Of a DNA stretch of 64,000 nt, positions 8,283-61,660 are shown one piece after another. Source of the stretch: Vulgatibacter incomptus (GTDB taxonomy: Bacteria; Myxococcota; Myxococcia; Myxococcales; Vulgatibacteraceae). Both the position numbers and the translations under genes were made by a program. The stretch is taken from positions 428,001 through 492,000 of the forward strand of contig NZ_CP012332.1 in assembly GCF_001263175.1 (NCBI RefSeq). The letters run 5' to 3'. The notes beneath the pieces are model-generated. The model saw only the letters and a list, made by a program, of their open reading frames with translations, did not search any database and was not told the DNA's origin. Position 1 is the first letter of the stretch; every line of letters starts with the position of its first letter.

Positions 8283-10346
8283 CTAGGCCTCGCCGGAGCC
8301 GCTCTCGACGGGCTCGGGAACACGGCTCGACGCAGCGGTTGCCGCCTTGGGCTCATCGGCCGAAGGAGGCTCTGCGCGGACCTCGGCGGCCCGCGGCTCA
8401 CTCGCACGGTCCTCGGCATCGCGAGCTTCGCCGGCTCGACCTTCCGCGGCGCGGCGCTCACCACCGCGGCCTTCACCGCCGCGGCCTTCGCCGCCGCGGC
8501 CTTCGCCGCCGCGGCCTTCGCCGCCGCGGCCTTCGCCGCGCTGCCCGCCGCCCCGGGCCTGGCGCTCACCGCCGCGGCCCTCACGGCGCTCGCCGCGCTT
8601 CTCTTCCTTCTTCTCCTCGCGCTTCTCTTCCTTCTTCTCCTCGCGGCGCGGCTGGGCCTGCTGCTGCGCAGCCTTGGCCTCCTTCTTCTCCTGCCGGCCG
8701 TAGAGGTCGAACTGCTCGAGGTGGTAGTGCTGCTGCGCCTTCACCTGGATGGTCTTGTTGTACTTGTCCATCATGAAGCGCAGGGTGTCCCGCTCTTCGC
8801 CCTGGATCGTACGCGCCACCTCGGGGTGGCAGTTGATCGCGATCGTCGGCTCGCGGAACGCCGACACCTCGCGGCGCAGCTCGCGGAAGATCTCGTGGGC
8901 GACCGTGATGCGGCTCTTCACCGCGCCGCGCCCCTCGCAGTACGGGCAGGGCTCGGTCAGCATCCGGCCGATGGACTCGCGCACTCGCTTGCGCGTCATC
9001 TCCACGAGGCCGAGCTCGGAGATCTTGAGGACGTTCGTCTTCGCCTTGTCGCGGCCGAGAGCCTCCTGCAAGGCCTTGAAGACCTTGTCCCGGTTCTGGC
9101 TCTTATCCATGTCGATGAAGTCGATGATGATGATTCCACCGATGTTCCGCAGGCGGAGCTGGTAGACGACCTCCTTCGCCGCCTCGATGTTGATCTTGGT
9201 GATCGTCTCCTCGAGGGACTGCTTCCCCACGTAGCGGCCGGAGTTGACGTCGATGGCGGTGAGCGCCTCCGCCTGGTCGATGATCAGGTAGCCGCCGCTC
9301 TTCAGCCAGACCTTGCGCTGCTGGGCCCGCTGGAGCTCGTGCTCGATGCCATAGGCGTCGAAGATCGGCTCGCTCTCCTGGTAGTGCTCCACGTGGGAGG
9401 CGAGGGCCGGATCCGTCGCCTGGACGAAGCGCATGATCCGCTCGTACTCGGCGCGATCGTCGATCACGAGCTTCTCCACGTCGGCGGAGAAGAGATCGCG
9501 CGTGGCGCGGAGGACGATGTCGAGGTCCGGATGGAGCAGGGCGGGGGCGCCGGTCTTGTCCTTCTTCCGGCCGATCTCGGTCCAGATGTGGATCAGGAAG
9601 CGCGCGTCGGCCTGGAGCTTCTCCGCGGGGACGCCGTCGGCGACCGTGCGGACGATGAAGCCGGTCCCGGGCGGGCGAAGGGCGTCGACCGTCTCCCGGA
9701 GGCGGCGGCGCTCCTTCTCGTTCTCGATCCGCCGCGAGATCCCCACGTGGTCCACCGTGGGCATGAACACGAGGTGCCGGCCGGGGATGGAGATGTGCGA
9801 GGTGATCCGGGCGCCCTTGGTCCCGATGGGATCCTTGGCGACCTGGACGATGACCTCCTGGCCCTCCTTGAGGAGGTCCTGGATGTTCACCTCCTTGTGG
9901 GGCTTCTCCTTCTTCTCCTTGTGGGGAGCGGCCTTCGCCTTGCGGGCCTCCTCCTTCTTGCCTTCGGCGGCGGTGGCCTCCTTGGCCTCTCCGTCTCCCT
10001 CTTCCTCACCTTCCTCCTCGCCCCGGGCGAGCATCGCCGCGGCGTACTCGTCGGGGACGCCCTCGGACTCAGGGTGCTCGCCCTCGGTGAGCTCGAACTG
10101 GCGCTCGGAGAAGTCGGGGTCGTAGTAGACGTCGGAGACGTAGAGGAACGCGGCCTTGTCCAGGCCGATGTCCACGAAGGCCGCCTGCATGCCGGGGAGC
10201 ACCCGGACCACGCGGCCCTTGTAGATGTTGCCCACGATCCCCTTGTCTGCGTTGCGCTCGAGGTAGAACTCGGAGATCTGTCCGTTTTCGACGAGTGCGA
10301 CTCTGGATTCGGAGCCCGTGGCGTTGATCACCAGGGAGGAAGACAT
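8283..10346 (-). CDS. rng: Ribonuclease E/G family endoribonuclease
   Basis: A 687-residue RNA-processing endonuclease. The S1 domain begins at about residue 35 and is interrupted by a charged insert (80-152, first Glu-rich, then Lys-rich). Catalytic core motifs are AIDVNSGRYVGKQSLEETI and IIIIDFIDM, followed by the zinc-link motif CPYCEGRG. Residues from about 553 onward form a disordered tail of KEEKREEK and then five GEGRG-type repeats, resembling the RNA- and partner-binding tails of RNase E. Core length suits RNase G, whereas the tail is RNase E-like. The ATG at 10344-10346 gives the family start MSSSLVINATGSESRVALVENG, with a modest AAGG site. It is coupled to yihY downstream. Confidence 0.95.
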   Translation of the reverse strand: MSSSLVINATGSESRVALVENGQISEFYLERNADKGIVGNIYKGRVVRVLPGMQAAFVDIGLDKAAFLYVSDVYYDPDFSERQFELTEGEHPESEGVPDEYAAAMLARGEEEGEEEGDGEAKEATAAEGKKEEARKAKAAPHKEKKEKPHKEVNIQDLLKEGQEVIVQVAKDPIGTKGARITSHISIPGRHLVFMPTVDHVGISRRIENEKERRRLRETVDALRPPGTGFIVRTVADGVPAEKLQADARFLIHIWTEIGRKKDKTGAPALLHPDLDIVLRATRDLFSADVEKLVIDDRAEYERIMRFVQATDPALASHVEHYQESEPIFDAYGIEHELQRAQQRKVWLKSGGYLIIDQAEALTAIDVNSGRYVGKQSLEETITKINIEAAKEVVYQLRLRNIGGIIIIDFIDMDKSQNRDKVFKALQEALGRDKAKTNVLKISELGLVEMTRKRVRESIGRMLTEPCPYCEGRGAVKSRITVAHEIFRELRREVSAFREPTIAINCHPEVARTIQGEERDTLRFMMDKYNKTIQVKAQQHYHLEQFDLYGRQEKKEAKAAQQQAQPRREEKKEEKREEKKEEKRGERREGRGGERQARGGGQRGEGRGGEGRGGEGRGGEGRGGEGRGGERRAAEGRAGEARDAEDRASEPRAAEVRAEPPSADEPKAATAASSRVPEPVESGSGEA
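8465..8539 (-). repeat. Five 15-bp tandem units inside the RNase E/G tail
   Basis: The unit is CGCGGCCTTCGCCGC on the plus strand, repeated about five times from 8465. On the coding strand it encodes GEGRG repeats in the disordered C-terminal tail. Units are nearly identical at DNA level, suggesting recent slippage. Confidence 0.85.
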
Positions 10347-14940: not shown

Positions 14941-15125
14941 GGCGTCTGCTCCATGCTCGCCCACGCGCTCCCGGGGCGTCGATTCGGCTGGACGGACCGC
15001 TCGTCGGAGGCTCGGGGGGAGAGGCGCGTGGGCGCCGAACCCACGCTCGCCCGCCTCCTGCCCGTCCAAGGTAAGGAGCTTTCGCCGAGGCGAAGCGGCC
15101 GGGGGCGCTCCAATGGGGAGACGAC

Positions 15126-15221
15126 GCGTGTGAAGAAATCGGCCCCGCATCAGCGGGCCCGACTTCTTCAGCTCGCGCTTCGCGCGAGAGCGCTCCTTTT
15201 CGTTTGCTCGCCTCCGGCTCA
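15126..15221 (-). repeat. Dispersed hairpin repeat, copy 1 (abuts uspA-like stop)
   Basis: Read on the minus strand it begins at the TGA of the UspA-family gene. It contains the conserved A-rich linker (AGCAAACGAAAAGGAGCG), hairpin 2 (CTCGCGC/GCGCGAG, 15172-15188) and hairpin 3 (15131-15148 with 15153-15170, 18-bp arms, loop ATCA). Hairpin 1 of the longer copies is missing. Confidence 0.9.
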
Positions 15222-16067
15222 GCGTACGATCAGCACCGGGCAGGGCGCTCGGGACGCGAGGTGGCTGGACACGCTCCCGAGGAAGAAGCGGCGCGCCGGC
15301 GAGTGCCCCCGGGAGCCCACGACCAGCAGGTCGATGTTCCACTCCTCCGCGCGCTCGCTCAGCCGGTGGGCGGCGTGTCCCAGATCGAAGGTCGCGGAGG
15401 AAACCTCGGCGCCGGCCTTCATGGCGAGCTCGCGGGCGGCGCAGAGGTCGGCGAGGTTCTCCTTGCCGACGACCTCTTCGACGTCCTCGGAGTCGAGCTC
15501 GATCCCCTCGGGAGGTAGCGGCCAGGGAGGAGGGACGATCGATTCGATCCGCAGCGCGCCGTCCGACCGAGCGGCGAGGTACGCGGCCACCTTCACCGCT
15601 TCGCGCGAACAGTCCGAGCCGTCGAAGCCGACGAGGATGCGGGCGAGGCGGGGGCCGCTGCTCACGCCGGAGGGCACCACGACCACCGACCTCTCTGCCT
15701 GCCGGACGACCTTCATCGAGACGGAGCCGAGCTTCAGGCCGCGCCGCGCGCTCCCGAGGCAGAGGATGTCGGCGCTCGACTCCTCGCCGTAGCCGACGAT
15801 CGACTCCGCGACGGGGCCGTCGAGCTCGACGCGATGGGCGATCGGCGCGACCGAGCCGATCGCGGCCTGGGCCGAGGCGAGGTTCTGCTTGCACTGCTGG
15901 CGAGCCGCCTCGCGGTCGCCGCCGGTGAAGAGACGGTGCGCGACCGGCTCCACCACGCAGATCAGGTCGATGGTGCCCTTCGCCGCTGCGGCGATGTGGG
16001 CGCCCACCAGGCTGGCGTGGAAGGACGAGGTGGAGCCGTCGACCGCGGCCACCACGTGCTCGAACAT
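15219..16067 (-). CDS. Universal stress protein, tandem UspA domains
   Basis: A 282-residue cytoplasmic protein made of two UspA domains (about 1-140 and 145-282). The first begins MFEHVVAAVDGSTSSFHASL, the second RILVGFDGSDCSREAVKVAA. The second ends with the nucleotide-binding signature VVGSRGHSPARRFFLGSVS and PCPVLIVR; the first has the weaker CLGSARRGLKLGSVS. This suggests the C-terminal domain is the better ATP binder. Members act in stress resilience, with precise roles varying. The stop codon is directly followed by a copy of the dispersed hairpin repeat. It is divergent from the DHH phosphoesterase, 155 bp away. Confidence 0.93.
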   Translation of the reverse strand: MFEHVVAAVDGSTSSFHASLVGAHIAAAAKGTIDLICVVEPVAHRLFTGGDREAARQQCKQNLASAQAAIGSVAPIAHRVELDGPVAESIVGYGEESSADILCLGSARRGLKLGSVSMKVVRQAERSVVVVPSGVSSGPRLARILVGFDGSDCSREAVKVAAYLAARSDGALRIESIVPPPWPLPPEGIELDSEDVEEVVGKENLADLCAARELAMKAGAEVSSATFDLGHAAHRLSERAEEWNIDLLVVGSRGHSPARRFFLGSVSSHLASRAPCPVLIVR

Positions 16068-21538: not shown

Positions 21539-23353
21539 GTGAGCGTTCGCAGCTTTTCGATCGCGTGGGTGATCCTGGCCCTCGCCACCGCCGGTTGCGG
21601 CGGCTGCAGGAGCAAGGAAGCGGCCCAGGAGGCGACGGCCGCGGCCTTCCTCCCCGCGCGCCCGTCATCGGCGATCCTCGTCCCCGACCCGGCGAAGCTG
21701 GGCGAGACGGTGAAGGCGCTGGAGCAGACCCGCCTCGCCGGCCTCGCGGCGACGACGGTCCTGGGCGCCCGAGACGCGGGGGATCTCCTCCGCCCGATCA
21801 CCCGCCAGCTCGGCTTCGATCCGCGGGAGCCGGGCGGCTTCGAGAAGACGGGGATCGACGGGCGCAAGGGCATCGCCTTCGGCGATGACGTCCTCGTGAT
21901 CGGCGTCACGGATCGGGATCGCTTCGATCCCTACGTCGCTGCGCTCGCGAAGCGCCTCGGCGGCGAGACCCGGGGCAAGGAAACCTGGACCGGGACCCAG
22001 GAGGCGCCCGCCAACGTGGAGGTGACCACCTTCACCGACGCCTCCGGCAAGGTGCAGGTCGCGCTCGGCGTGAAGGACGGCTTCGCCGTGATCGGCAGCG
22101 GCGGGAGCGCGGTGGAGAAGGTGGGCGCCTCGCTCTCGCGGCCCAGGTCCCTCTCCCTCGACGCGAACCCCGCGTTCCGGAAGCTGCTCGGCCGCCTCGG
22201 CGAGCGCGACGTCTACGGCTGGCTCCCCGAGGGAATGGGCGCGGGACGGAACCGCCGCCTCGAGAAGGGCGCCGCCTTCGGCCTCCGCGCCGGGACCGGC
22301 GGCCTGAACGCGAGGGTGATCGCGTCGCAGGGAGCGCTGCAGCTCGCGATGATCCTGCCGATCGGCAAGCAGGCGGGGGCCGGGCTCGTTCCGCTCCTCC
22401 CGCCCGACGATCTGCTGGTGGTGCGGCTCGGCGGGGATCCCGTCGCCCTCTCGCCGGTGCTCGACTCGCTGCTGCCGCGCGGCCTCTCGAGGGCGCTGGT
22501 CGCGGCGGGGATCGATCCGACCACGGAGATCCTGAGCCAGCTCCAGCCGGGGATCGCGCTTGGCCTGGAGCTGAACCCCGCGATCGACCTCTCCGGCGGG
22601 ATCCCCACCGATCCCTCGATCTCCTCCACCAACCCCTTCCGCTTCGTGAGGGCGATGATGGTCGCCCGCGTGAAGGATCCGGCGAAGGCGGCGGAGGTCC
22701 TCGGGAAGCTCGCGACGGGCGCCGAGCGCTTCCGCATGCAGATCGCCTCGGAGGAGAAGGACGGCGTGAAGATCTACCGCGCCACCTACGCCGCCGGCGA
22801 AGGCATGACGTGGGGGCTCGTGGGCGACACGCTCCTCGCGACGGGAGGCGGCGAGGAGATGTTCCAGAAGGGACTCGCGCGGGTGAGAGCTCGTGATGAA
22901 ATCACGGGCTCTCGCGGAGCCGACGGCGGAGCAGACAAAAAGAAGAGCGGTTCCGCGCGGCGCGCGGCTGAAGAAGTCGGGCCCGCTTCTGCGGGGCCGA
23001 TTTCTTCAAACGCTCTGCGGGCTTCTTCGTCCGGCGCAGAGAAGGCGGCGGGAGCGGCGAAGGCCGAGAACGTGGCGGCTCGGGCGGACGGAAAGGCCGA
23101 CGGCTTCGCGATCGCCGAGCCCGGCGCCCGGCAGCTCTTCGACTCCGCGGGCTCGGCGGCCCACCTCGACGTAGCACGCCTCGCGGCCTCGCTCCGGGCC
23201 ATCCCGCAGTCGGCCTTCGGCGTCGGCGGCTTCCGGATGAAGGAGCTCTTCCAGACCTGGGTCGATCTGCTCGACGAGGTGAAGGGCGTGACCGCGGCGC
23301 TGTCCATCGACGAGGACGGCGTGATCGTCGACATGGACGTGGGCCTCAAGTGA
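21539..23353 (+). CDS. Lipoprotein carrying an in-frame dispersed repeat
   Basis: A 604-residue exported protein, possibly of the DUF3352 type, with no firm family assignment. Signal peptide MSVRSFSIAWVILALATAGC ends in a lipobox. The body is an alternation of beta and alpha elements with repeated SSAILVPDPAKL- and DPAKAAEVLGKL-like segments. At about residues 450-495 the reading frame passes through a copy of the dispersed hairpin repeat and encodes SGSARRAAEEVGPASAGPIS, a low-complexity insert followed by an Ala/Lys linker. It starts at GTG with GGAG 5 nt upstream. It is followed after 7 bp by an ABC ATPase and permease, so it may serve that transporter. Confidence 0.85.
   Translation: MSVRSFSIAWVILALATAGCGGCRSKEAAQEATAAAFLPARPSSAILVPDPAKLGETVKALEQTRLAGLAATTVLGARDAGDLLRPITRQLGFDPREPGGFEKTGIDGRKGIAFGDDVLVIGVTDRDRFDPYVAALAKRLGGETRGKETWTGTQEAPANVEVTTFTDASGKVQVALGVKDGFAVIGSGGSAVEKVGASLSRPRSLSLDANPAFRKLLGRLGERDVYGWLPEGMGAGRNRRLEKGAAFGLRAGTGGLNARVIASQGALQLAMILPIGKQAGAGLVPLLPPDDLLVVRLGGDPVALSPVLDSLLPRGLSRALVAAGIDPTTEILSQLQPGIALGLELNPAIDLSGGIPTDPSISSTNPFRFVRAMMVARVKDPAKAAEVLGKLATGAERFRMQIASEEKDGVKIYRATYAAGEGMTWGLVGDTLLATGGGEEMFQKGLARVRARDEITGSRGADGGADKKKSGSARRAAEEVGPASAGPISSNALRASSSGAEKAAGAAKAENVAARADGKADGFAIAEPGARQLFDSAGSAAHLDVARLAASLRAIPQSAFGVGGFRMKELFQTWVDLLDEVKGVTAALSIDEDGVIVDMDVGLK
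22884..23018 (+). repeat. Dispersed hairpin repeat, copy 2 (inside a coding sequence)
   Basis: Complete copy in the plus orientation. Hairpin 1 is GAGAGCTCGTGAT/ATCACGGGCTCTC (22885-22913), hairpin 2 CCGCGC/GCGCGG (22953-22967), and hairpin 3 22969-22986 with 22991-23008 (loop TTCT). The TGA that forms a stop codon in intergenic copies is out of frame here, so the host lipoprotein frame reads through. Confidence 0.92.
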
Positions 23354-23360
23354 GCTTCCC

Positions 23361-24053
23361 GTGATTCGCCTCGAGAGCCTGACCAAGAGCTACCGCGACG
23401 GCGGGAACCGCTTCGACGTGTTGCGAGGCGTCTCACTCGGTGTGGAGGAGGGCGAGCTCGTGGCGGTGATGGGCGCCTCCGGCTCGGGGAAGTCGACGCT
23501 GCTCAACGTGATCGGCGGCCTCGACCGGGACTACGGCGGCAGCGCCGAGGTCCTGGGCCGCGACCTCTCGAAGCTCGGCGATCGCGAGCTCTCCCGCTAC
23601 CGTAACGAGAGCGTCGGCTTCGTCTTCCAGTCGTTCAACCTCGTGCCCCCGCTGACGGTGCTGCAGAACGTGCTCCTGCCGGGCTACTTCGAGGGCGGAG
23701 GCGGGCAGCCTGCCGCCGCGGCGCGATCGTCGGCGCGAGACGCCCTCGCGCGCGTGGGCCTCGCCGGCAAGGAGGGGCGGCTGCCCGCCCGGCTCTCCGG
23801 CGGCGAGCGGCAGCGGGTGGCCCTGGCGCGGGCGCTCTTTCGCCGACCGCGCCTCGTGCTCGCGGACGAGCCGACGGGCTCCCTCGACGCGCAGACCGCC
23901 CGGGACGTGATCGACCTGCTGGTCGAGCTGAACGTGAAGGAGCGTCTCACCGTCGTGGTGGTGACCCACGACGAGCAGGTCGCGTCGAGGGCCCGCCGGA
24001 TCCTGCGGCTGAAGGACGGCCTCCTAGTGGACGATCGGGAGCACGCGCGATGA
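23361..24053 (+). CDS. ABC transporter ATP-binding protein (LolD/MacB type)
   Basis: A 230-residue ATPase. Walker A is GASGSGKST, the signature motif is LSGGERQRVALARAL, and Walker B is RLVLADEPTGSLDAQTA, followed by the switch histidine in VVVTHDEQ. The FVFQSFNLVPPLTVLQNV segment is typical of the LolD/MacB/FtsE subgroup. It starts at GTG 7 bp after the upstream lipoprotein gene and overlaps the permease by ATGA. It probably drives extraction or export of a lipoprotein or small molecule rather than import. Confidence 0.95.
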   Translation: MIRLESLTKSYRDGGNRFDVLRGVSLGVEEGELVAVMGASGSGKSTLLNVIGGLDRDYGGSAEVLGRDLSKLGDRELSRYRNESVGFVFQSFNLVPPLTVLQNVLLPGYFEGGGGQPAAAARSSARDALARVGLAGKEGRLPARLSGGERQRVALARALFRRPRLVLADEPTGSLDAQTARDVIDLLVELNVKERLTVVVVTHDEQVASRARRILRLKDGLLVDDREHAR

Positions 24054-25333
24054 GCGCTGGACGCTGGCTGCAGCTCGTCCTGGTGAACCTGGGCCGGGAG
24101 CTCCGCAGCAACCTGCTCTCCGTCTTCGGCGTCGCCGCGGGCATCGGCTCCCTGGTCTTCTTCGTGGCGCTCGGCCTGGGCGTCGGCGAGGTGGTGAAGA
24201 CCCGGCTCTTCCCCGCGGACGCGCGCTTCGTGGAGGTGATCCCGCCGCGGGTCTCCGTGGGGATCTTTGGCGGCGCCAAGCTGGACGACGCGGCGGTGGA
24301 GAGGCTGCGGGCGCTCCCCGACGTCGAGGCGGGCTACCGGAAGATGACGCTCCGGATCCCGGCGATCAGCCGCTACGACGGGAGCTTCTTCGGCCAGCGC
24401 CTGCGGATGGGGCTGGAGATCCTGGCGGAAGGGGTCGATGGCGGCCTGATCGAGGCCGATCTTACACCGGGTGTCCGATTCGATGACCCGGAGGGAGACG
24501 AGCCGATCCCGGCGCTGGTCTCCACCCGGCTGCTCGAGATCTACAACAAGAGCTTCGCGCGGATGCGCGGCCTCCCATCGCTCTCGCCGCCGATGCTGCG
24601 GGGCTTCGAGTTCCCGGTGGAGCTCGGCCGATCCTACGTGACGGCCCAGGCGGCAGCCGGAACGCCGCTGCGCGCCCAGGCGCGGCTCGCCGGGATCTCG
24701 GAGCGCGCGATGCTCCAGGGGATCACCATCCCCCTCGAGACCGCCAGGCGGCTGAACGCCCGCTACGGCGAGGACGCCCGCGGCTACTCGGCGCTGGTGC
24801 TGGTCGCGCGCACGCCCGATCGAGTGCCCGCGGTCGCACAGGCGGTGCGGGATCTGGGCTTCGAGATCGACGACTCCGAGCGCGTCCTCGCCGAGAGGGT
24901 CGGCGCCGCGGTGGCGATCACCACCGCCGCCCTCGCGCTGCTCTCGCTGCTCATCTGCGGCCTGTCGGCGGTGAACATCTCCCTCTCGGCAGGGGCGGCC
25001 GTCCGCACCCGCACGCGGGAGATCGGCGTCCTGCGGGCGGTCGGCGCCACGGCCGGCGACGTCCGCCGCCTCTTCCTCGGCGAGGCGGCGTTCATCGGTC
25101 TCGCGGGAGGCGTGGCGGGCGGCGGGCTCGCGTGGGCCGTCGCCATCGGCGTCGACCGGGCCGCCCGCTCGTGGCTGCCGGACTTCCCGTTCAAGCCCGA
25201 TTCGTTCTTCGCGTTCCCCGGCTGGCTCCTCGCCGGCGCAGTCGCCGCCGGCGTGGCCGCGGCCCTACTCGGGGCGTTCGTCCCGGCCCACCGGGCGTCG
25301 AAGCTCGATCCCGCCCGGGCCATCGGAGGCTGA
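24050..25333 (+). CDS. ABC transporter permease (MacB/FtsX/LolC type)
   Basis: A 427-residue permease. One transmembrane helix lies near the N-terminus (SNLLSVFGVAAGIGSLVFFV), followed by a periplasmic domain of about 240 residues. Three C-terminal helices begin at about residue 290, including VAITTAALALLSLLICGLSA. The FtsX-domain signature TREIGVLRAVGATAGDVRRL is present. It pairs with the ATPase just upstream (ATGA overlap). Its TGA stop is the first codon of dispersed repeat copy 3, so the 3' UTR is that element. Confidence 0.94.
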   Translation: MSAGRWLQLVLVNLGRELRSNLLSVFGVAAGIGSLVFFVALGLGVGEVVKTRLFPADARFVEVIPPRVSVGIFGGAKLDDAAVERLRALPDVEAGYRKMTLRIPAISRYDGSFFGQRLRMGLEILAEGVDGGLIEADLTPGVRFDDPEGDEPIPALVSTRLLEIYNKSFARMRGLPSLSPPMLRGFEFPVELGRSYVTAQAAAGTPLRAQARLAGISERAMLQGITIPLETARRLNARYGEDARGYSALVLVARTPDRVPAVAQAVRDLGFEIDDSERVLAERVGAAVAITTAALALLSLLICGLSAVNISLSAGAAVRTRTREIGVLRAVGATAGDVRRLFLGEAAFIGLAGGVAGGGLAWAVAIGVDRAARSWLPDFPFKPDSFFAFPGWLLAGAVAAGVAAALLGAFVPAHRASKLDPARAIGG

Positions 25334-25463
25334 GAGCTTGTGAAGAATTCACAAGCTCTCTCGAAGCCGGAGGCGAAGCAGACGAAAAGAAGAGCGTTTC
25401 CGCGCGGAGCGCGGCTGAAGAAGTCGGGCCCGCTTCTGCGGGGCCGACTTCTTCACACGCTCC
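25332..25463 (+). repeat. Dispersed hairpin repeat, copy 3 (abuts permease stop)
   Basis: Full copy. Hairpin 1 GAGAGCTTGTGAA/TTCACAAGCTCTC (25332-25360) is a perfect 13-bp stem beginning inside the permease TGA. The linker GCAGACGAAAAGAAGAGCG follows, then hairpin 2 (CCGCGC/GCGCGG) and hairpin 3 (25416-25455, 18-bp arms with one mismatch, loop TTCT). Confidence 0.93.
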
Positions 25464-30837: not shown

Positions 30838-30955
30838 TCCGCGTCGGCGGAGCCGAAGGCGGAGCAAACAAGAAGTGGAGCGTCGTCCGCGCGAAGCGCG
30901 GCTGAAGGAAACGGGCCCGCTCCTGGCGGGGCCGGTTCCTTCATACGCTCCGCGG
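30838..30955 (+). repeat. Dispersed hairpin repeat, copy 4 (abuts ZIP stop)
   Basis: Short copy starting directly after the ZIP TGA. It has the linker (GGAGCAAACAAGAAGTGGAG), hairpin 2 (CCGCGC/GCGCGG) and hairpin 3 TGAAGGAAACGGGCCCGC (30903-30920) with 30926-30943. The arms differ from other copies by paired changes. Hairpin 1 is absent. Confidence 0.88.
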
Positions 30956-37738: not shown

Positions 37739-38724
37739 GGTGGCTCGCGATCGGATGTCTGCTCTTCTTGCCGGCGATCGCGGGAGCGGGGCTCCTGGAC
37801 AAGCCGGAGCCGGAGATCGCCGCGGGCAACCAGGCGTTGGCGGCCGGCGACGCGGAGGCGGCGCTCCGGCACTACGACGAGGCGGCCCGCGCGCATCCCG
37901 AGCTGGGCGAGGTCCACTTCGACCGCGGAACCGCGCTCCACGCCCTGGGGCGATACGAGGAGGCGGTGGAGGCGTTCACGCAGGCGCTCTCGCGTCGGAG
38001 CATCGGTGCTCTGGGTGTGAATGATTATTACAACATGGGCAACTCCCTCGCGGCGATGAACAAGCCGGACGAGGCGATGCAGGCGTTCCGGCACGCGCTG
38101 GAGATCGATCCGGACGACGAGGAGGCGCGGCGGAACCTCGAGGTGCTCCTTCGACGGAAACAGGAGCAGCAGAAGCAGAACCAGCAGAACCAGGACGAGC
38201 AGCAGCAGGATCAGCAGCAGCAGGACGAGCAGAAGCAGGCGCAGCAGCAGGATCAGCAGCAACAGGACGAGCAGAAGCAGGCGCAGCAGCAGGATCAGCA
38301 GAAGCAGGACGAGCAAAAGCAGGCGCAGCAGCAGGATCAGCAGAAGCAGGACGAGCAGAAGCAGGCGCAGCAGCAGGATCAGCAGAAGCAGGACGAGCAG
38401 AAACAGGCGCAGCAGCAGAATGAGCAGAAGCAGGACGAGCAGAATCAGGCGCAGCAGCAGGACCAGAAACAGGACGAGCAGAAGCAGGCCCAGCAACAGG
38501 ACCAGCCGCAGCCGGACCAGCAGCAGGAACAGCAGGCGCAGGCTCGCCAGCAGGATCCGCAGGAGGCCTCCGGGGCCGCCCACGGCGACGAGGGCACCGA
38601 GCCCGAGCACTCGCGCACCGAGGCTGAGCGGATCCTCGACACCCTGCGCGGAAGCGAGCGGAGCTTCCAGCTCTGGCGCTACCAGAAGAAGGGGAAGCAC
38701 ACCGATGCGGAAAAGGACTGGTAG
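37735..38724 (+). CDS. batC: TPR protein BatC with long Gln-rich repeat region
   Basis: A 329-residue exported or membrane-attached TPR protein. A signal peptide (MRWLAIGCLLFLPAIAGAG) is followed by three TPR units (about 24-130), for example DYYNMGNSLAAMNKPDEAMQ. Residues about 143-285 are almost entirely Gln, Asp, Glu, Lys and Ala, with a 14-residue period (DEQKQAQQQDQQKQ). The end has TEAERILDTLRGSERSFQLW, a segment typical of BatC-like proteins that often follows a Gln/Lys-rich linker. The GTG start overlaps the batB stop. Its 3' end overlaps batD by 20 bp. Confidence 0.92.
   Translation: MRWLAIGCLLFLPAIAGAGLLDKPEPEIAAGNQALAAGDAEAALRHYDEAARAHPELGEVHFDRGTALHALGRYEEAVEAFTQALSRRSIGALGVNDYYNMGNSLAAMNKPDEAMQAFRHALEIDPDDEEARRNLEVLLRRKQEQQKQNQQNQDEQQQDQQQQDEQKQAQQQDQQQQDEQKQAQQQDQQKQDEQKQAQQQDQQKQDEQKQAQQQDQQKQDEQKQAQQQNEQKQDEQNQAQQQDQKQDEQKQAQQQDQPQPDQQQEQQAQARQQDPQEASGAAHGDEGTEPEHSRTEAERILDTLRGSERSFQLWRYQKKGKHTDAEKDW
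38224..38511 (+). repeat. 42-bp tandem repeats in batC
   Basis: Units starting GACGAGCAGAAGCAGGCGCA recur at 38224, 38266, 38308, 38350, 38392 and 38434, with a shortened 39-bp unit before 38473. Each encodes 14 residues rich in Gln. Units differ by only a few bases, so copy number probably varies between strains. Confidence 0.93.
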
Positions 38725-45602: not shown

Positions 45603-45628
45603 CCCGCCTCGCTCGAGTCGGCGTCGAA

Positions 45629-45754
45629 GCGTATGAAGAAATCGGTCCCGCGGGAGCGGGCCCGATTCTTCATCTCGCGCTGCGCGCGAGAAGCGCTCCT
45701 TTTCGTTTGCTCGCCTCCGGCTCGCGAGAGTTCGTGAATTCTTCACGAACTCTC
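45629..45754 (-). repeat. Dispersed hairpin repeat, copy 5 (abuts DUF1460 stop)
   Basis: Full copy read on the minus strand. Hairpin 1 GAGAGTTCGTGAA/TTCACGAACTCTC (45726-45754) starts within the TGA of the DUF1460 gene. The linker AGCAAACGAAAAGGAGCG follows, then hairpin 2 CTCGCGC/GCGCGAG (45674-45690) and hairpin 3 45634-45651 with 45656-45672 (loop GGGA). Confidence 0.93.
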
Positions 45755-46679
45755 AACGGCTCGTGTCGAGGAGGCGCGACTCCGCCGCACGGCGGGCGCG
45801 CTCGGCGTTGGGCCGCACCGCGAGCAGGTTCACACCGAGCACCCGCCGCGAGCGCATCCCCGCGTGGCGGCGAAGGAAGCGCTCGATCGGCTCGTCGATC
45901 ACTTCGCGCTCGGCGAGGGCGGCGTGGCGCACGAAGCGCTTGCCGTCCTTCACGACCACGAGGCCGGTGTGCGTGATCAGGCTGACCTTTCCGGCGGCTG
46001 GGACCCGCACCACGTTCAGGACCAGCCCCTCGGGGAGCGAGGGGCCGAGCTCGATCGCGGCGTCCAGCGGGATCACCGGAATGGAGTGGGTCCCCGCGAG
46101 CCGCGGGCTCCACGGCTGGCCCTTCAGGTCCTCGCGCTTCGCCCAGCTCTCGGCGGTGTAGGTGACCGAGGCCTCGATCACGCGATCGCCGCCCAGGCGT
46201 CGGGTGGCCTCCTCGACATAGCCCTTGCGGATCAGGTCGGGGATCCACTGGGCCTCCATGAGGTGGAGGCGACTCTCGAAGGAGGGCGCTTTGCCGCCCT
46301 CGTAGCGGATGTCGTCGAGGATGGGCTCGACCTCGTCCAGGCTCCGCGCCTCGCCGACAGCCAGCGACGTCTCGACGAAGGTGAGGCAGTCCACGGCGTC
46401 CCACCGGAGCCTCGGCCCCGAGGAGCCGCCGTCGCCAAGCGGGGCACGACGGTAGCGGGCGCCCAGGAAGGCCTCGGAGGCGGCGCGTGTGCGCTCCCAG
46501 CCGCCCGGCAGGGTCGACAGGCGCGCGATCGCGCTCACGATGCCTTCTCGGCTCGAGCGGGGAAAGCGGGCAGGCTGGACGGGGTGGGTCTCCTTCGGCT
46601 GGGACGCCATCGCCACGCTGCCGAGCGGAAGGGAAGCGAGCGGAAGGAGGGCGAGCAGGATGGCGAGCGGTGATCGCAT
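45753..46679 (-). CDS. DUF1460 family amidase-like exported protein
   Basis: A 308-residue secreted protein of the DUF1460 family, which has a papain/NlpC-like fold and is annotated as N-acetylmuramoyl-L-alanine amidase-like. The signal peptide is MRSPLAILLALLPLASLPLG. The probable catalytic Cys lies in WDAVDCLTFVETSLAVGEA and the His in KVSLITHTGLVV. The AGTHSIPVIP segment is also family-like. It probably cleaves peptidoglycan peptides in the periplasm, an inference from fold. The ATG at 46679 starts the signal peptide; the longer open frame upstream covers the Cys-rich gene in another frame. The stop overlaps dispersed repeat copy 5. Confidence 0.87.
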   Translation of the reverse strand: MRSPLAILLALLPLASLPLGSVAMASQPKETHPVQPARFPRSSREGIVSAIARLSTLPGGWERTRAASEAFLGARYRRAPLGDGGSSGPRLRWDAVDCLTFVETSLAVGEARSLDEVEPILDDIRYEGGKAPSFESRLHLMEAQWIPDLIRKGYVEEATRRLGGDRVIEASVTYTAESWAKREDLKGQPWSPRLAGTHSIPVIPLDAAIELGPSLPEGLVLNVVRVPAAGKVSLITHTGLVVVKDGKRFVRHAALAEREVIDEPIERFLRRHAGMRSRRVLGVNLLAVRPNAERARRAAESRLLDTSR

Positions 46680-46724
46680 CGGGCCGATTCTAACCACGAC
46701 CGCGCACCAAGCCCTACAAACGAC

Positions 46725-46765
46725 GCCCTTCGTCCGCCGCAACGAAGCAGCGACGGACGAAGGGC
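46725..46765 (-). terminator. Rho-independent-like terminator after the Cys-rich lipoprotein gene
   Basis: Perfect 12-bp stem GCCCTTCGTCCG (46725-46736) with CGGACGAAGGGC (46754-46765). On the minus strand the stem is followed by GTCGTTTGT. It lies 16 bp after the stop codon at 46781. Confidence 0.75.
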
Positions 46766-46780
46766 AGGGGACGTACCCGC

Positions 46781-47137
46781 TTAGCTCTTGTAGGGCAGGC
46801 AGGACGCCGCGAGCTCGCAGCTGTCCTTCAGGCACTTGTTGAACGCCATGGCCACGTCGAAGCAGCAGGTCTTGTCGGTCGGCTCGCAGGTCATGGCACA
46901 CTCGGTGAACTTGTCCATGGCCTCTGCACACGCACCGCCTTCCATCCCGCACTCCCCGGTCTTCATGGCGCAATCCATGCAGGCCTCGCCCGCGGGCTCG
47001 GTCGCGCAGACGTAGTCCGGGTTGGGCACGAGCTCGCTCGAGCCCGTACCCGTCTTCTTGTCGTCACCACATGCCGCCAGGCCCATCGCGGCAATCGCAA
47101 GAGCCATCACGAACCACTTCGTTGCAAGCTTCGACAT
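46781..47137 (-). CDS. Small Cys-rich lipoprotein
   Basis: A 118-residue exported protein. The signal peptide MSKLATKWFVMALAIAAMGL is followed by a lipobox (GLAAC). The mature part has about a dozen cysteines in CxxC-like and paired arrangements (ACMDCAMKTGEC, CAMTCEPTDKTCC, KCLKDSCELAASC), suggesting a disulfide-rich helical knot or metal binding. No family is recognised. It has its own promoter candidate upstream and a strong terminator downstream, so it is probably a single-gene transcript and may be well expressed. The ATG at 47135-47137 has AAGGAAG upstream. Confidence 0.85.
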   Translation of the reverse strand: MSKLATKWFVMALAIAAMGLAACGDDKKTGTGSSELVPNPDYVCATEPAGEACMDCAMKTGECGMEGGACAEAMDKFTECAMTCEPTDKTCCFDVAMAFNKCLKDSCELAASCLPYKS

Positions 47138-56288: not shown

Positions 56289-57467
56289 TCAACCTGGCGG
56301 CGGCAGCTCGATCGGCGAGCCGTCGGGCACCGTCTCCGGCGCCTCCTCCTGGTTCACCGGGGGTGTCTCCTCCTCCCACTCCCACGGCTCGGCAGGGGCG
56401 GGCACGTCGCCGCCCGCCCGATTGCTCCCAGGGAGCGCGCGTGGACGAGTGAGGTCGGCGAAGCGCTCGTCGCCGCGGACGGGGTCGAAGTCCGCCGCCG
56501 TCCGGGCCTGCATCCGGTAGAGGGCCGGCTCCGCCTCGATCGCTTCCTCCAGGGACGCGAGGATCGCCCCGATCGGCGCGCCGGATCGGGCCAGGAAGCG
56601 CGCCCGCACGAAGGCCAGGGTCGGGTCCGGCGCCTCGAAGGAGGCGGCGCGGGAGAGCGCGGCCTCTGCCGCCGGCAGCGATCCGGCCTCGAGGGCGAGC
56701 CTCGCCCGCTCCGTGTACAGCCGCGACGCGCCGGCCCAGAGATCGACGACGACGAGGTCCTCGGTCCTCAGCGACCCCGTGCCCGTCCGGACCGCCAGCG
56801 CGGCGACGTCAGGGCCGAGGAAGGCCAGGGAGAGATCGCCCGCGACGATCCGCCCGACCTCCGCCTCGTCGTCGCCGTCGGGCCCGCGCAACACCGCGAT
56901 CCACGCCTCGCCGTAGCGCGGGTCCCTTCGGCGCTCGACGAGCAGGCGGAAGCCCTCGAGCCTGCCCCGCAGCGCGAATGACGGAATCGGTCCCGCAGGA
57001 GCGGGCCCGATTCCGTCAGCCGCGGTTCTCGCGGTCGCGCTCTTGCGTGGCTCCGCGTTCGGCTTCGCGTGCGCGGCGATCGGCGCAGCGTGATCGGCCT
57101 CGCCGGGCAGCGCCGGAAACCGGGGAAAGAGGCTCGAGAGCGGCGCCCCCGCCGAGACGGCCGCGAGGGCCTCGTCCACGCGAAGGGCCTCGCCGCCTTC
57201 GAGGGCCGGGAGGGTCGCGTCGCCTTCCCCCCGCCAGATGGCGTGGCGCCTGCCGGAGGCCTCCAAGAAGGAGAGGGTGACCCTGGGCGGAATGGAGTCG
57301 CCTGCCTCGAGCTCGGCCTCGACGAGCACGCTCCGCTCCACGAGGCCCCTGGGGATCACGCCCACGATCGATCGCACGTGGAGGACCTGCTCGTCCGGTC
57401 GGATCGCGCCGTGGGCGCAGCCCGCGAGCGCCAACAGGAGAAGGCCCGCGACGGCGGCAGCCTTCAC
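56289..57467 (-). CDS. TPR-like lipoprotein carrying an in-frame dispersed repeat
   Basis: A 392-residue exported protein. The signal MKAAAVAGLLLLALAGC has a clear lipobox. The first domain (about 25-110) is beta-rich. Residues about 135-170 are encoded by dispersed repeat copy 6 and contain SATARTAADGIGPAPAGPIP. A second beta domain follows, then TPR-like helices (ARLALEAGSLPAAEAALSRA) and a Pro/Glu-rich tail. No overall family is recognised. The GTG start overlaps the stop of the upstream lipoprotein gene (GTGA), so the two are coupled. Confidence 0.85.
   Translation of the reverse strand: MKAAAVAGLLLLALAGCAHGAIRPDEQVLHVRSIVGVIPRGLVERSVLVEAELEAGDSIPPRVTLSFLEASGRRHAIWRGEGDATLPALEGGEALRVDEALAAVSAGAPLSSLFPRFPALPGEADHAAPIAAHAKPNAEPRKSATARTAADGIGPAPAGPIPSFALRGRLEGFRLLVERRRDPRYGEAWIAVLRGPDGDDEAEVGRIVAGDLSLAFLGPDVAALAVRTGTGSLRTEDLVVVDLWAGASRLYTERARLALEAGSLPAAEAALSRAASFEAPDPTLAFVRARFLARSGAPIGAILASLEEAIEAEPALYRMQARTAADFDPVRGDERFADLTRPRALPGSNRAGGDVPAPAEPWEWEEETPPVNQEEAPETVPDGSPIELPPPG
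56972..57067 (-). repeat. Dispersed hairpin repeat, copy 6 (inside a coding sequence)
   Basis: Divergent short copy in the same orientation as the host gene. Hairpin 3 TGACGGAATCGGTCCCGC (56979-56996) pairs with 57001-57018 (loop AGGA) with one mismatch. Hairpin 2 is CCGCG/CGCGG (57020-57034), followed by a degenerate linker. The arms differ from other copies by paired substitutions (TGACGG/CCGTCA for TGAAGA/TCTTCA). Confidence 0.85.
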
Positions 57468-59943: not shown

Positions 59944-61530
59944 ATGGCCCGCCTCTCCGTCCTCGTCTTGACCCTCCTCGCGGTCGCCGCCACCGGCGCG
60001 ACTCTCTACCTGGACGGACCCGAGGCGATGCGCGCCGCCGAGCGGCAGCTCGACGAGCGCCTCCAGGCGTCGGCGAAGGCCGCAGGTGCGTTGATCGCCG
60101 CCTCCGCTGCGCCCGCAGCCGAGCCTCCGGCGGAGAAGGCCCAGGCCGCCGCGAAGCGCGACGGGAAGGGTGACGCCGTACAGGATCCGGTGGGCGGGAC
60201 CGCAGCCGAGACCCACGAAGAGGCCTTCGACGCCGCGCTCGCCGGGCGCCTCGCCGGCCTCGTGGGAGCCGACGTCACCCTGCTCCGCGGCGGCAAGGTC
60301 GAGGCCTCGAGCCTCGCTCCCGCCCAGCGGTCGGAGGTGGCGGCGTCGTCGGCCGGCGCGACCGCCTTCGGCTCTGGCGAGCTCTCGGGTGATCGCTTCT
60401 CCTTCTACGGCGCGCTGCCGCTGCCCCTCCTGGCGCCGCCGCCCGCCGCTCTTCGCGGATTCCGCATGGCGGTCCCCGGGGTCGACGGCGGCGAGCTGAT
60501 CGTCTCGGCTTCGACCGCCGACGCCATGGCGCCGATCGTCGCCTCCCAGGAGCGCGCGCTCGAGATCGCGCTCGCGGTGTTGCTCGTCGGCGTGCTCCTC
60601 GCGCTCCTCCAGGGGCGCAAGCGCGCGCCCGCCGGGCTCTCCCAGCTCGCGGACGCCGCCGAGCAGGCCGCGGAGGGCAGCGCCACGGCCCACGCCGCCG
60701 AGCACCTCTCCGGCGACCTCGGCCGCCTGGGCCGCGCGATCAATCGCCTCTCGGCCAAGGCGCGGCAGGCGGGCGTATCCGCCTCTTCGCTCCCCCTTGC
60801 AGCCCCGCCGCCGGAGCCTCCCTCCGACGTGGCCGACTCCTTCCCTTTCCAGGGAACGCCGTCCCGCGGCGAGCCCTCGTCGCTCCTCGGGGGAACGCCC
60901 GGCCCCGCGGCCGGATTCGAGCTCGGCAGCTCCGCGCCGTTTGGCGCCACGCCGGGGCCCTTCGCCGCCGAGCGCACCATCGAGCATCCGGCGCCCGTCG
61001 TGCTGGGCAACGGCGTCAGCTTCGCGGACGCCGGTCCTCGGAGCGACGGCTGGAGCCGCGGACCCGTCTCGTCCGGCCCGCTCGCCGAGACTGGCGTAGT
61101 CGGGGGGGGCGTAGTCGAGGGGGGCGCATGGGACCAGCCCACCCGCCAGCTGCCGCTTCGCCAGCCCGGCGTCGAGGATCCCTTCGGCTCCGCGATCGCC
61201 GCTGCCGCGGGCGGCGCGTTCAACCCGGAGGCCACGGTGGTCGCCGCGATCCCCGAGGCGCTGCTGCGGGCGACCAGCCGGGCGCCGGTGATCGCGATTC
61301 CCCAGCCGGATCCGGAGGAGCTGCACCTCCAGCAGGTCTTCGAGGATTTCATGAGGCTTCGCGGGGAGTGCGGCGAGCCGGTGGAGGGCCTCGGCTTCGA
61401 GAAGTTCGCGGCCAAGCTCCGCCAGAACCGCGTGCAGCTCATCGAAAAGTATCAGTGTCGGACGGTCCGCTTCACGGCGTACGTGAAGGACGGAAAGGCG
61501 GCGCTCAAGGCGTCGCCGGTGAAGGACTGA
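59944..61530 (+). CDS. MXAN_5187-type membrane protein
   Basis: A 528-residue protein. The N-terminal transmembrane helix (LSVLVLTLLAVAATGATLYL) precedes a periplasmic sensor-like domain (about 25-195; LVGADVTLLRGGKVEASSLA). A second helix follows (ALEIALAVLLVGVLLALLQG), then a HAMP-like linker (RLGRAINRLSAKARQ) and a long disordered Gly/Pro/Ser region. The C-terminal 70 residues (FEDFMRLRGECGEPVEGLGF, EKYQCRTVRFTAYVKDGKAA) match the domain known from Myxococcus MXAN_5187, function unknown. The layout suggests a transmembrane sensor. Its TGA is the first codon of dispersed repeat copy 7. Confidence 0.85.
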   Translation: MARLSVLVLTLLAVAATGATLYLDGPEAMRAAERQLDERLQASAKAAGALIAASAAPAAEPPAEKAQAAAKRDGKGDAVQDPVGGTAAETHEEAFDAALAGRLAGLVGADVTLLRGGKVEASSLAPAQRSEVAASSAGATAFGSGELSGDRFSFYGALPLPLLAPPPAALRGFRMAVPGVDGGELIVSASTADAMAPIVASQERALEIALAVLLVGVLLALLQGRKRAPAGLSQLADAAEQAAEGSATAHAAEHLSGDLGRLGRAINRLSAKARQAGVSASSLPLAAPPPEPPSDVADSFPFQGTPSRGEPSSLLGGTPGPAAGFELGSSAPFGATPGPFAAERTIEHPAPVVLGNGVSFADAGPRSDGWSRGPVSSGPLAETGVVGGGVVEGGAWDQPTRQLPLRQPGVEDPFGSAIAAAAGGAFNPEATVVAAIPEALLRATSRAPVIAIPQPDPEELHLQQVFEDFMRLRGECGEPVEGLGFEKFAAKLRQNRVQLIEKYQCRTVRFTAYVKDGKAALKASPVKD

Positions 61531-61660
61531 GAGTTCGTGAAGAACTTCACGAACTCTCGCGAGCCGGAGGCGAGCAAACGAAAAGGAGCGCCCTCGCGCG
61601 AAGCGCGAGCTGAAGAAAGCGGGCCCGCTTCGGCGGGGCCGATTGCTTCACACGCTCTGA
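61529..61660 (+). repeat. Dispersed hairpin repeat, copy 7 (abuts MXAN_5187-type stop)
   Basis: Full copy. Hairpin 1 GAGAGTTCGTGAA/TTCACGAACTCTC (61529-61558) overlaps the TGA. The linker AGCAAACGAAAAGGAGCG follows, then hairpin 2 CTCGCGC/GCGCGAG and a less perfect hairpin 3 (61611-61650). Confidence 0.92.

Follow-up and report, generated by a model that had tools for sequence, protein, structure and literature searches.

A palindromic repeat family of Vulgatibacter incomptus that abuts TGA stop codons and is read in one frame within six genes

Protein-coding palindromes have been described mainly in Rickettsia and its relatives. REP sequences associated with RayT have a 20–40-nt palindrome with the tetranucleotide GTAG or CGTC at its foot, and the RayT gene is flanked by the repeat. 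The Rickettsia palindromic elements (RPE) of Ogata et al. (2000) are described as palindromic repeats of 100–150 bp that lie between genes or, as in-frame fusions, within unrelated conserved genes, where each family supplies one conserved peptide and the copies are probably neutral passengers (PMC2229807, PMC10969869). Some bacterial MITEs also contain open frames that have become fused to genes (PMC2229807).

The family that we describe here, from the bacterium Vulgatibacter incomptus, is likewise a palindrome that occurs both between genes and in frame within them, and most of its full-length intergenic copies begin on the stop codon of the gene upstream.

Palindromic copies in the window and across the genome

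One copy lies in gene B, a predicted lipoprotein gene on the minus strand of the window, by which we mean the whole 64-kb stretch of DNA that was analyzed (56289–57467; GTG start; lipobox LALAGC (VKAAAVAGLLLLALAGC)); its product matched no Pfam family. A covariance model of the element places this copy at 56972–57069 on the minus strand (85.5 bits, E 1e-19). It lacks hairpin 1, has coding sequence on both flanks and encodes HAKPNAEPRKSATARTAADGIGPAPAGPIPSFA in frame +1, the frame in which a codon boundary precedes the GAA of TGAAGAA; translated in the frame of the gene, the peptide across the copy reads SATARTAADGIGPAPAGPIP. The initial annotation had taken this copy to share its orientation and frame with one in gene A and to encode a related peptide, and this reading holds. 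Gene A (predicted lipoprotein, 21539–23353, plus strand, start uncertain) contains a full-length in-frame copy at 22884–23015 on the plus strand, running from TGAGAGCTCGTGATG... to ...AAACGCTC (115.1 bits, frame +1), and the peptide that it derives from the repeat at 22913–23015 (plus strand) is SGSARRAAEEVGPASAGPIS; relative to the repeat, its orientation and frame are those seen in gene B. The claim that base changes in the hairpin are still paired was borne out as well: in the long hairpin of the gene B copy, TGACGGAATCGG...CCGATTCCGTCA, all 12 bp pair, even though two positions in each arm deviate from the consensus.

Altogether, the window holds seven copies of the family. Two intergenic copies on the plus strand are full length: that at 25331–25462, whose first TGA (25331–25333) is the stop codon of the open reading frame (ORF) at 24050–25333, and that at 61528–61660, which has a TGA on both sides, the first being the stop codon of ORF 59944–61530. 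A third intergenic copy, on the minus strand at 45627–45755, has as its first TGA (45753–45755) the stop codon of the minus-strand ORF 45753–46973. The remaining two, also intergenic, lack hairpin 1 and lie at 15124–15224 (minus strand, overlapping the end of ORF 15219–16067) and at 30846–30950 (plus strand). Separately from this family, the window contains in-frame coding repeats of short period (12–18 nt) at 1944–2177, 8406–8557 and 38077–38595, which probably give rise to low-complexity protein stretches.

Across the genome, a single contig of 4,350,553 bp, about 125 places match the covariance model, which was trained on 22 copies, and about 110 of these do so at E below 1e-9; a pattern search for the repeat returned 41 forward and 41 reverse matches, versus 0 with a reversed-pattern control, an excess well above chance. 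The full-length element is about 130 nt long and has four hairpins and 14-nt terminal inverted repeats, GAGCKTGTGAAGAA and TTCTTCACACGCTC; when flanks are lined up, its 5' end is (T)GAGAGCTTGTGAAGAATTCACAAGCTCTC and its 3' end TTCTTCACACGCTC(TGA). Hairpin 1 is kept in 38 copies. Among 115 distinct sequences, changes affect both partners in 24 of the 29 base pairs, with 113 such cells versus 18.0 in shuffles, and 98.2% of cells in the helices are paired, whereas slid structures reach only 36–51%. Because covariation and pairing stand so far above these shuffled and slid controls, the hairpins are maintained, and selection, mobility or correction templated by the hairpin may be what maintains them.

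No copies were detected when the covariance model was run with stricter filters over 59 other genomes of the order, one of them from the same family, and a strict pattern scan of the whole collection returned no relative of the element. A looser scan of the whole collection gave six matches, which we rejected as relatives, their model scores being at chance level. Within this coverage, the palindromic family is specific to this bacterium, having multiplied in one lineage.

Several copies depart from the standard architecture. At G000:C1:1146911-1146963 (L028:612-664), a 53-nt minimal version consists of two inverted ends around a single hairpin and starts at a TGA; it may be the ancestral unit or have arisen by deletion. 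Three 5' fragments with hairpin 1 (G000:C1:1214504, 2567608 and 103347) are broken off inside the element, so that 3'-truncated copies exist outside the covariance-model count. Composite copies with a doubled middle module (...GAGCGTTTCCGCGC joined to ACGCGAAGCC...) occur on the same contig at 1118861-1119031, 2955897-2956041, 530996-531141 and other places.

Six in-frame copies and their hosts

To call a copy coding, we scored both of its flanks with a dicodon gene finder trained on the roughly 0.65 Mb that surrounds all the copies. A gene runs across exactly six of them, with coding sequence on both sides and an open frame, at strict and relaxed thresholds alike, against about 119 that are intergenic. 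In all six, the element lies in the + orientation and is read in frame +1. The encoded insert comprises 33–49 residues, is rich in Ala, Gly, Ser, Pro and Glu and is probably disordered.

The hosts are lipoproteins A and B, a monoacylglycerol-lipase-like alpha/beta hydrolase, the apolipoprotein N-acyltransferase Lnt, a HelD-like helicase and an intein in DnaE, so the palindromic repeat did enter unrelated genes, as the initial annotation had proposed. Its suggestion of a link to lipoproteins or exported proteins falls on the identity of these hosts: two are lipoproteins and one is a membrane enzyme (Lnt), and the other three are the hydrolase, the helicase and the DnaE intein. That annotation had also named random reading frames, or a lack of further copies, as outcomes that would speak against it; the genome instead holds four more coding copies in the same orientation and frame. 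In the hydrolase, the insertion point falls directly after the nucleophile-elbow helix, and this insert, 49 residues long, also carries the doubled middle module. The copy in DnaE (DNA polymerase III alpha) sits inside the intein, adjoining its LAGLIDADG part. This locus (L025, G000:C1:2209000-2214000) contains a DnaE intein with a LAGLIDADG remnant and presents a mobile element nested in a mobile element within an essential gene.

Relatives of four hosts (the hydrolase, Lnt and lipoproteins A and B) were compared for empty sites. In other genomes of the order, the insert is missing from 19 of 19 hydrolase homologues, with both flanks aligning, and from all 13 Lnt homologues that cover the site, a fourteenth ending before it; relatives in the PDB likewise lack it. 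For gene A, a relative in the other genome of the same family (G001) aligns contiguously with query residues 4–452 and 514–599 without the insert, as do others, and for gene B the sole homologue found lacks the insert, with about 44 residues missing.

A stop-codon boundary and the choice of reading frame

Outside genes, 28 of 36 copies with hairpin 1 have as their first bases the in-frame TGA that ends a co-oriented upstream gene, where about 10 such coincidences would be expected for a randomly picked intergenic TGA. The count becomes 27 of 35 once a terminal-overlap duplicate is removed, because one copy is duplicated by untrimmed contig ends. The first 16.4 kb or so of the contig (G000:C1) recur at its other end: shifted by 4,334,160, all 10,162 bases that were compared match, which suggests that up to 16,393 bp of terminal overlap were left untrimmed when the circular contig was deposited. 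At the boundary, phase 0 outnumbers phase 1 by 28 to 0. In 22 of 38 hairpin-1 copies, the 3' end is likewise followed by a TGA, and where the 5' TGA is absent, the flanking triplets are unequal on the two sides; the terminal TGA either arose as a 3-bp duplication of the target or belongs to the end of the element. Between tandem genes, the element is co-oriented with the genes in 54 cases and opposed in 21 (p 0.00018). We also considered stop capture, in which the element truncates genes and its TGA becomes the new stop, and rejected it, because phase 1 would also terminate within a few codons and yet is absent.

Our preferred explanation, to which we assign a probability of about 0.7, is a non-autonomous, MITE-like element that lands on stop codons, with rare insertions inside genes in which only the +1 sense frame is readable and the resulting peptide is tolerated. 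Such an element would multiply by transposition, in one lineage. Its full-length copies would land on a TGA, mostly the in-frame stop codon of the gene upstream and in the same direction, usually with a second TGA at the far end, and landing there would leave the upstream gene intact. Rare insertions elsewhere would fall within genes, where, in the sense orientation, frames +0 and +2 would be closed by the terminal TGAs and by those within hairpin 1 and the long hairpin, leaving +1 to be read through. The +1 peptide would be tolerated in loops, which may be why these insertions survived. No transposase with matching ends was found among the six DDE_Tnp_1 and three Y1_Tnp loci, whose ends had at least 3 mismatches and were unpaired, and RayT does not stand next to the repeat, the three Y1_Tnp matches having no copy closer than about 5 kb; we therefore infer mobility from copy number and empty sites. 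The element might go further and sense TGA in the sense direction, making its landing harmless, with its internal TGAs leaving one defined peptide when it goes off target. This is a tentative and rather doubtful extension; if true, it would mean a safe-landing and safe-reading design built into the mobile element itself.

The position of the copies could also reflect a role at mRNA 3' ends, in stability or termination, that keeps the hairpins after genes, so that selection and not insertion targeting accounts for the abutment with stop codons. The strong covariation of all helices and the placement of the element directly 3' of genes, co-oriented with them, fit this proposal. However, a 3'-end role needs no base-exact TGA, yet all 28 stop-coincident copies use TGA, which terminates only about 62% of the genes called (332 of 538), and a search of the window matched no Rfam family. 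We consider this explanation unlikely.

As for the frame, a 135-nt consensus with both TGA ends contains two stops in +0, none in +1, two in +2 (the terminal TGAs), one in −0, none in −1 and one in −2. Because the TGA ends and the internal stops close +0 and +2, a full-length element in sense orientation is readable in +1 only. Frame −1 is open and encodes a similar peptide, and none of the six coding copies uses it. In the present sequences, +2 is also open in five of six coding copies, so that a complete stop filter requires the elements to have arrived at full length with their TGA ends. The chance of finding all six in +1 is 0.0007 if open frames are equal and orientation is even, 0.005 if the observed co-orientation is included and 0.016 to 0.14 under the full-length model. 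An intrinsic phase preference is excluded, because copies abutting gene ends stand in mixed frames: +0, +1 and +2 occur 3, 4 and 4 times upstream and 4, 9 and 9 times downstream. The favored frame is thus mainly the product of a stop-codon filter and an orientation bias. The idea that one frame is favored on entry stands insofar as that frame is over-represented (6/6 in +1); little or no favoring of the peptide is needed to account for it, given the stops and the 54:21 bias.

Selection on the peptide itself, with the +1 product being benign or useful as a linker or module, as the initial annotation suggests, would be another way to obtain a single frame. All five coding copies in which both +1 and +2 are now open use +1 (probability 1/32). 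The two peptides also differ in composition: that of +1 has a net charge of −3, close to neutral, and is the richer in disorder-promoting residues (82%), and that of +2 is strongly basic (+9) and contains more bulky hydrophobic residues. Against this, the hosts have no common function or location, the TGA-ended consensus is open only in +1 and −1 anyway, and with the observed co-orientation six of six in +1 has a probability of 0.14. We regard peptide selection as the source of the pattern as distinctly unlikely; as an additional layer on top of the stop filter, it is possible and not required. Finally, high-GC genomes contain long spurious ORFs, and the window has 153 ORFs of at least 150 aa, but a gene-calling artifact or pseudogenes, with ORFs crossing the repeat by chance, is scarcely credible when the flanks code in the same frame for six of six copies and homologues with intact ORFs align to either side of the insert.

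Comparison with RPE, MITEs and REP sequences

Modular hairpins 3' of genes and partial tandem composites liken the element to REP/BIME sequences with RayT, a Y1 transposase. It differs from them in being longer and in having 14-nt inverted ends, and the GTAG or CGTC tag is missing from its consensus, the two ends of which are TGAGAGC...CGCTCTGA. Its size (about 130 bp), terminal inverted repeats, stable hairpins and mostly intergenic position are shared with bacterial MITEs such as ERIC, Correia/NEMIS, RUP and YPAL. The ends and flanks are different, being GAG...CTC with TGA and not TA, as are the stop-codon preference and the lack of a parent insertion sequence among the DDE_Tnp_1 and Y1_Tnp loci. 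Our search, which covered the open-access literature and little of the subscription literature, turned up no account of a bacterial MITE whose defining trait is insertion at stop codons.

In the way it works, the element is like RPE, which also are palindromes of about 100–150 bp: here, too, there are many copies (about 125 places) with covarying hairpins, and here, too, copies have entered unrelated conserved genes in frame (six hosts, four of them with insert-free homologues). The phylum is a different one, and the likeness that we draw is functional, with no claim of descent from RPE. Vulgatibacter copies are also mainly intergenic (about 119 to 6), and they lie base-exact on TGA stop codons. 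This boundary is the chief point of difference, a preference that does not appear in the accessible parts of the RPE accounts (PMC2229807, PMC10969869).

This stop-codon boundary offers a concrete and testable reason for entry into genes in a single frame. Its independent occurrence, in a myxobacterium whose genome measures 4.3 Mb, suggests that protein-coding palindromes are convergent and not tied to genome decay. Beyond the element itself, natural inserts in essential proteins, such as Lnt and the DnaE intein, provide material for studying how new peptide segments become fixed.
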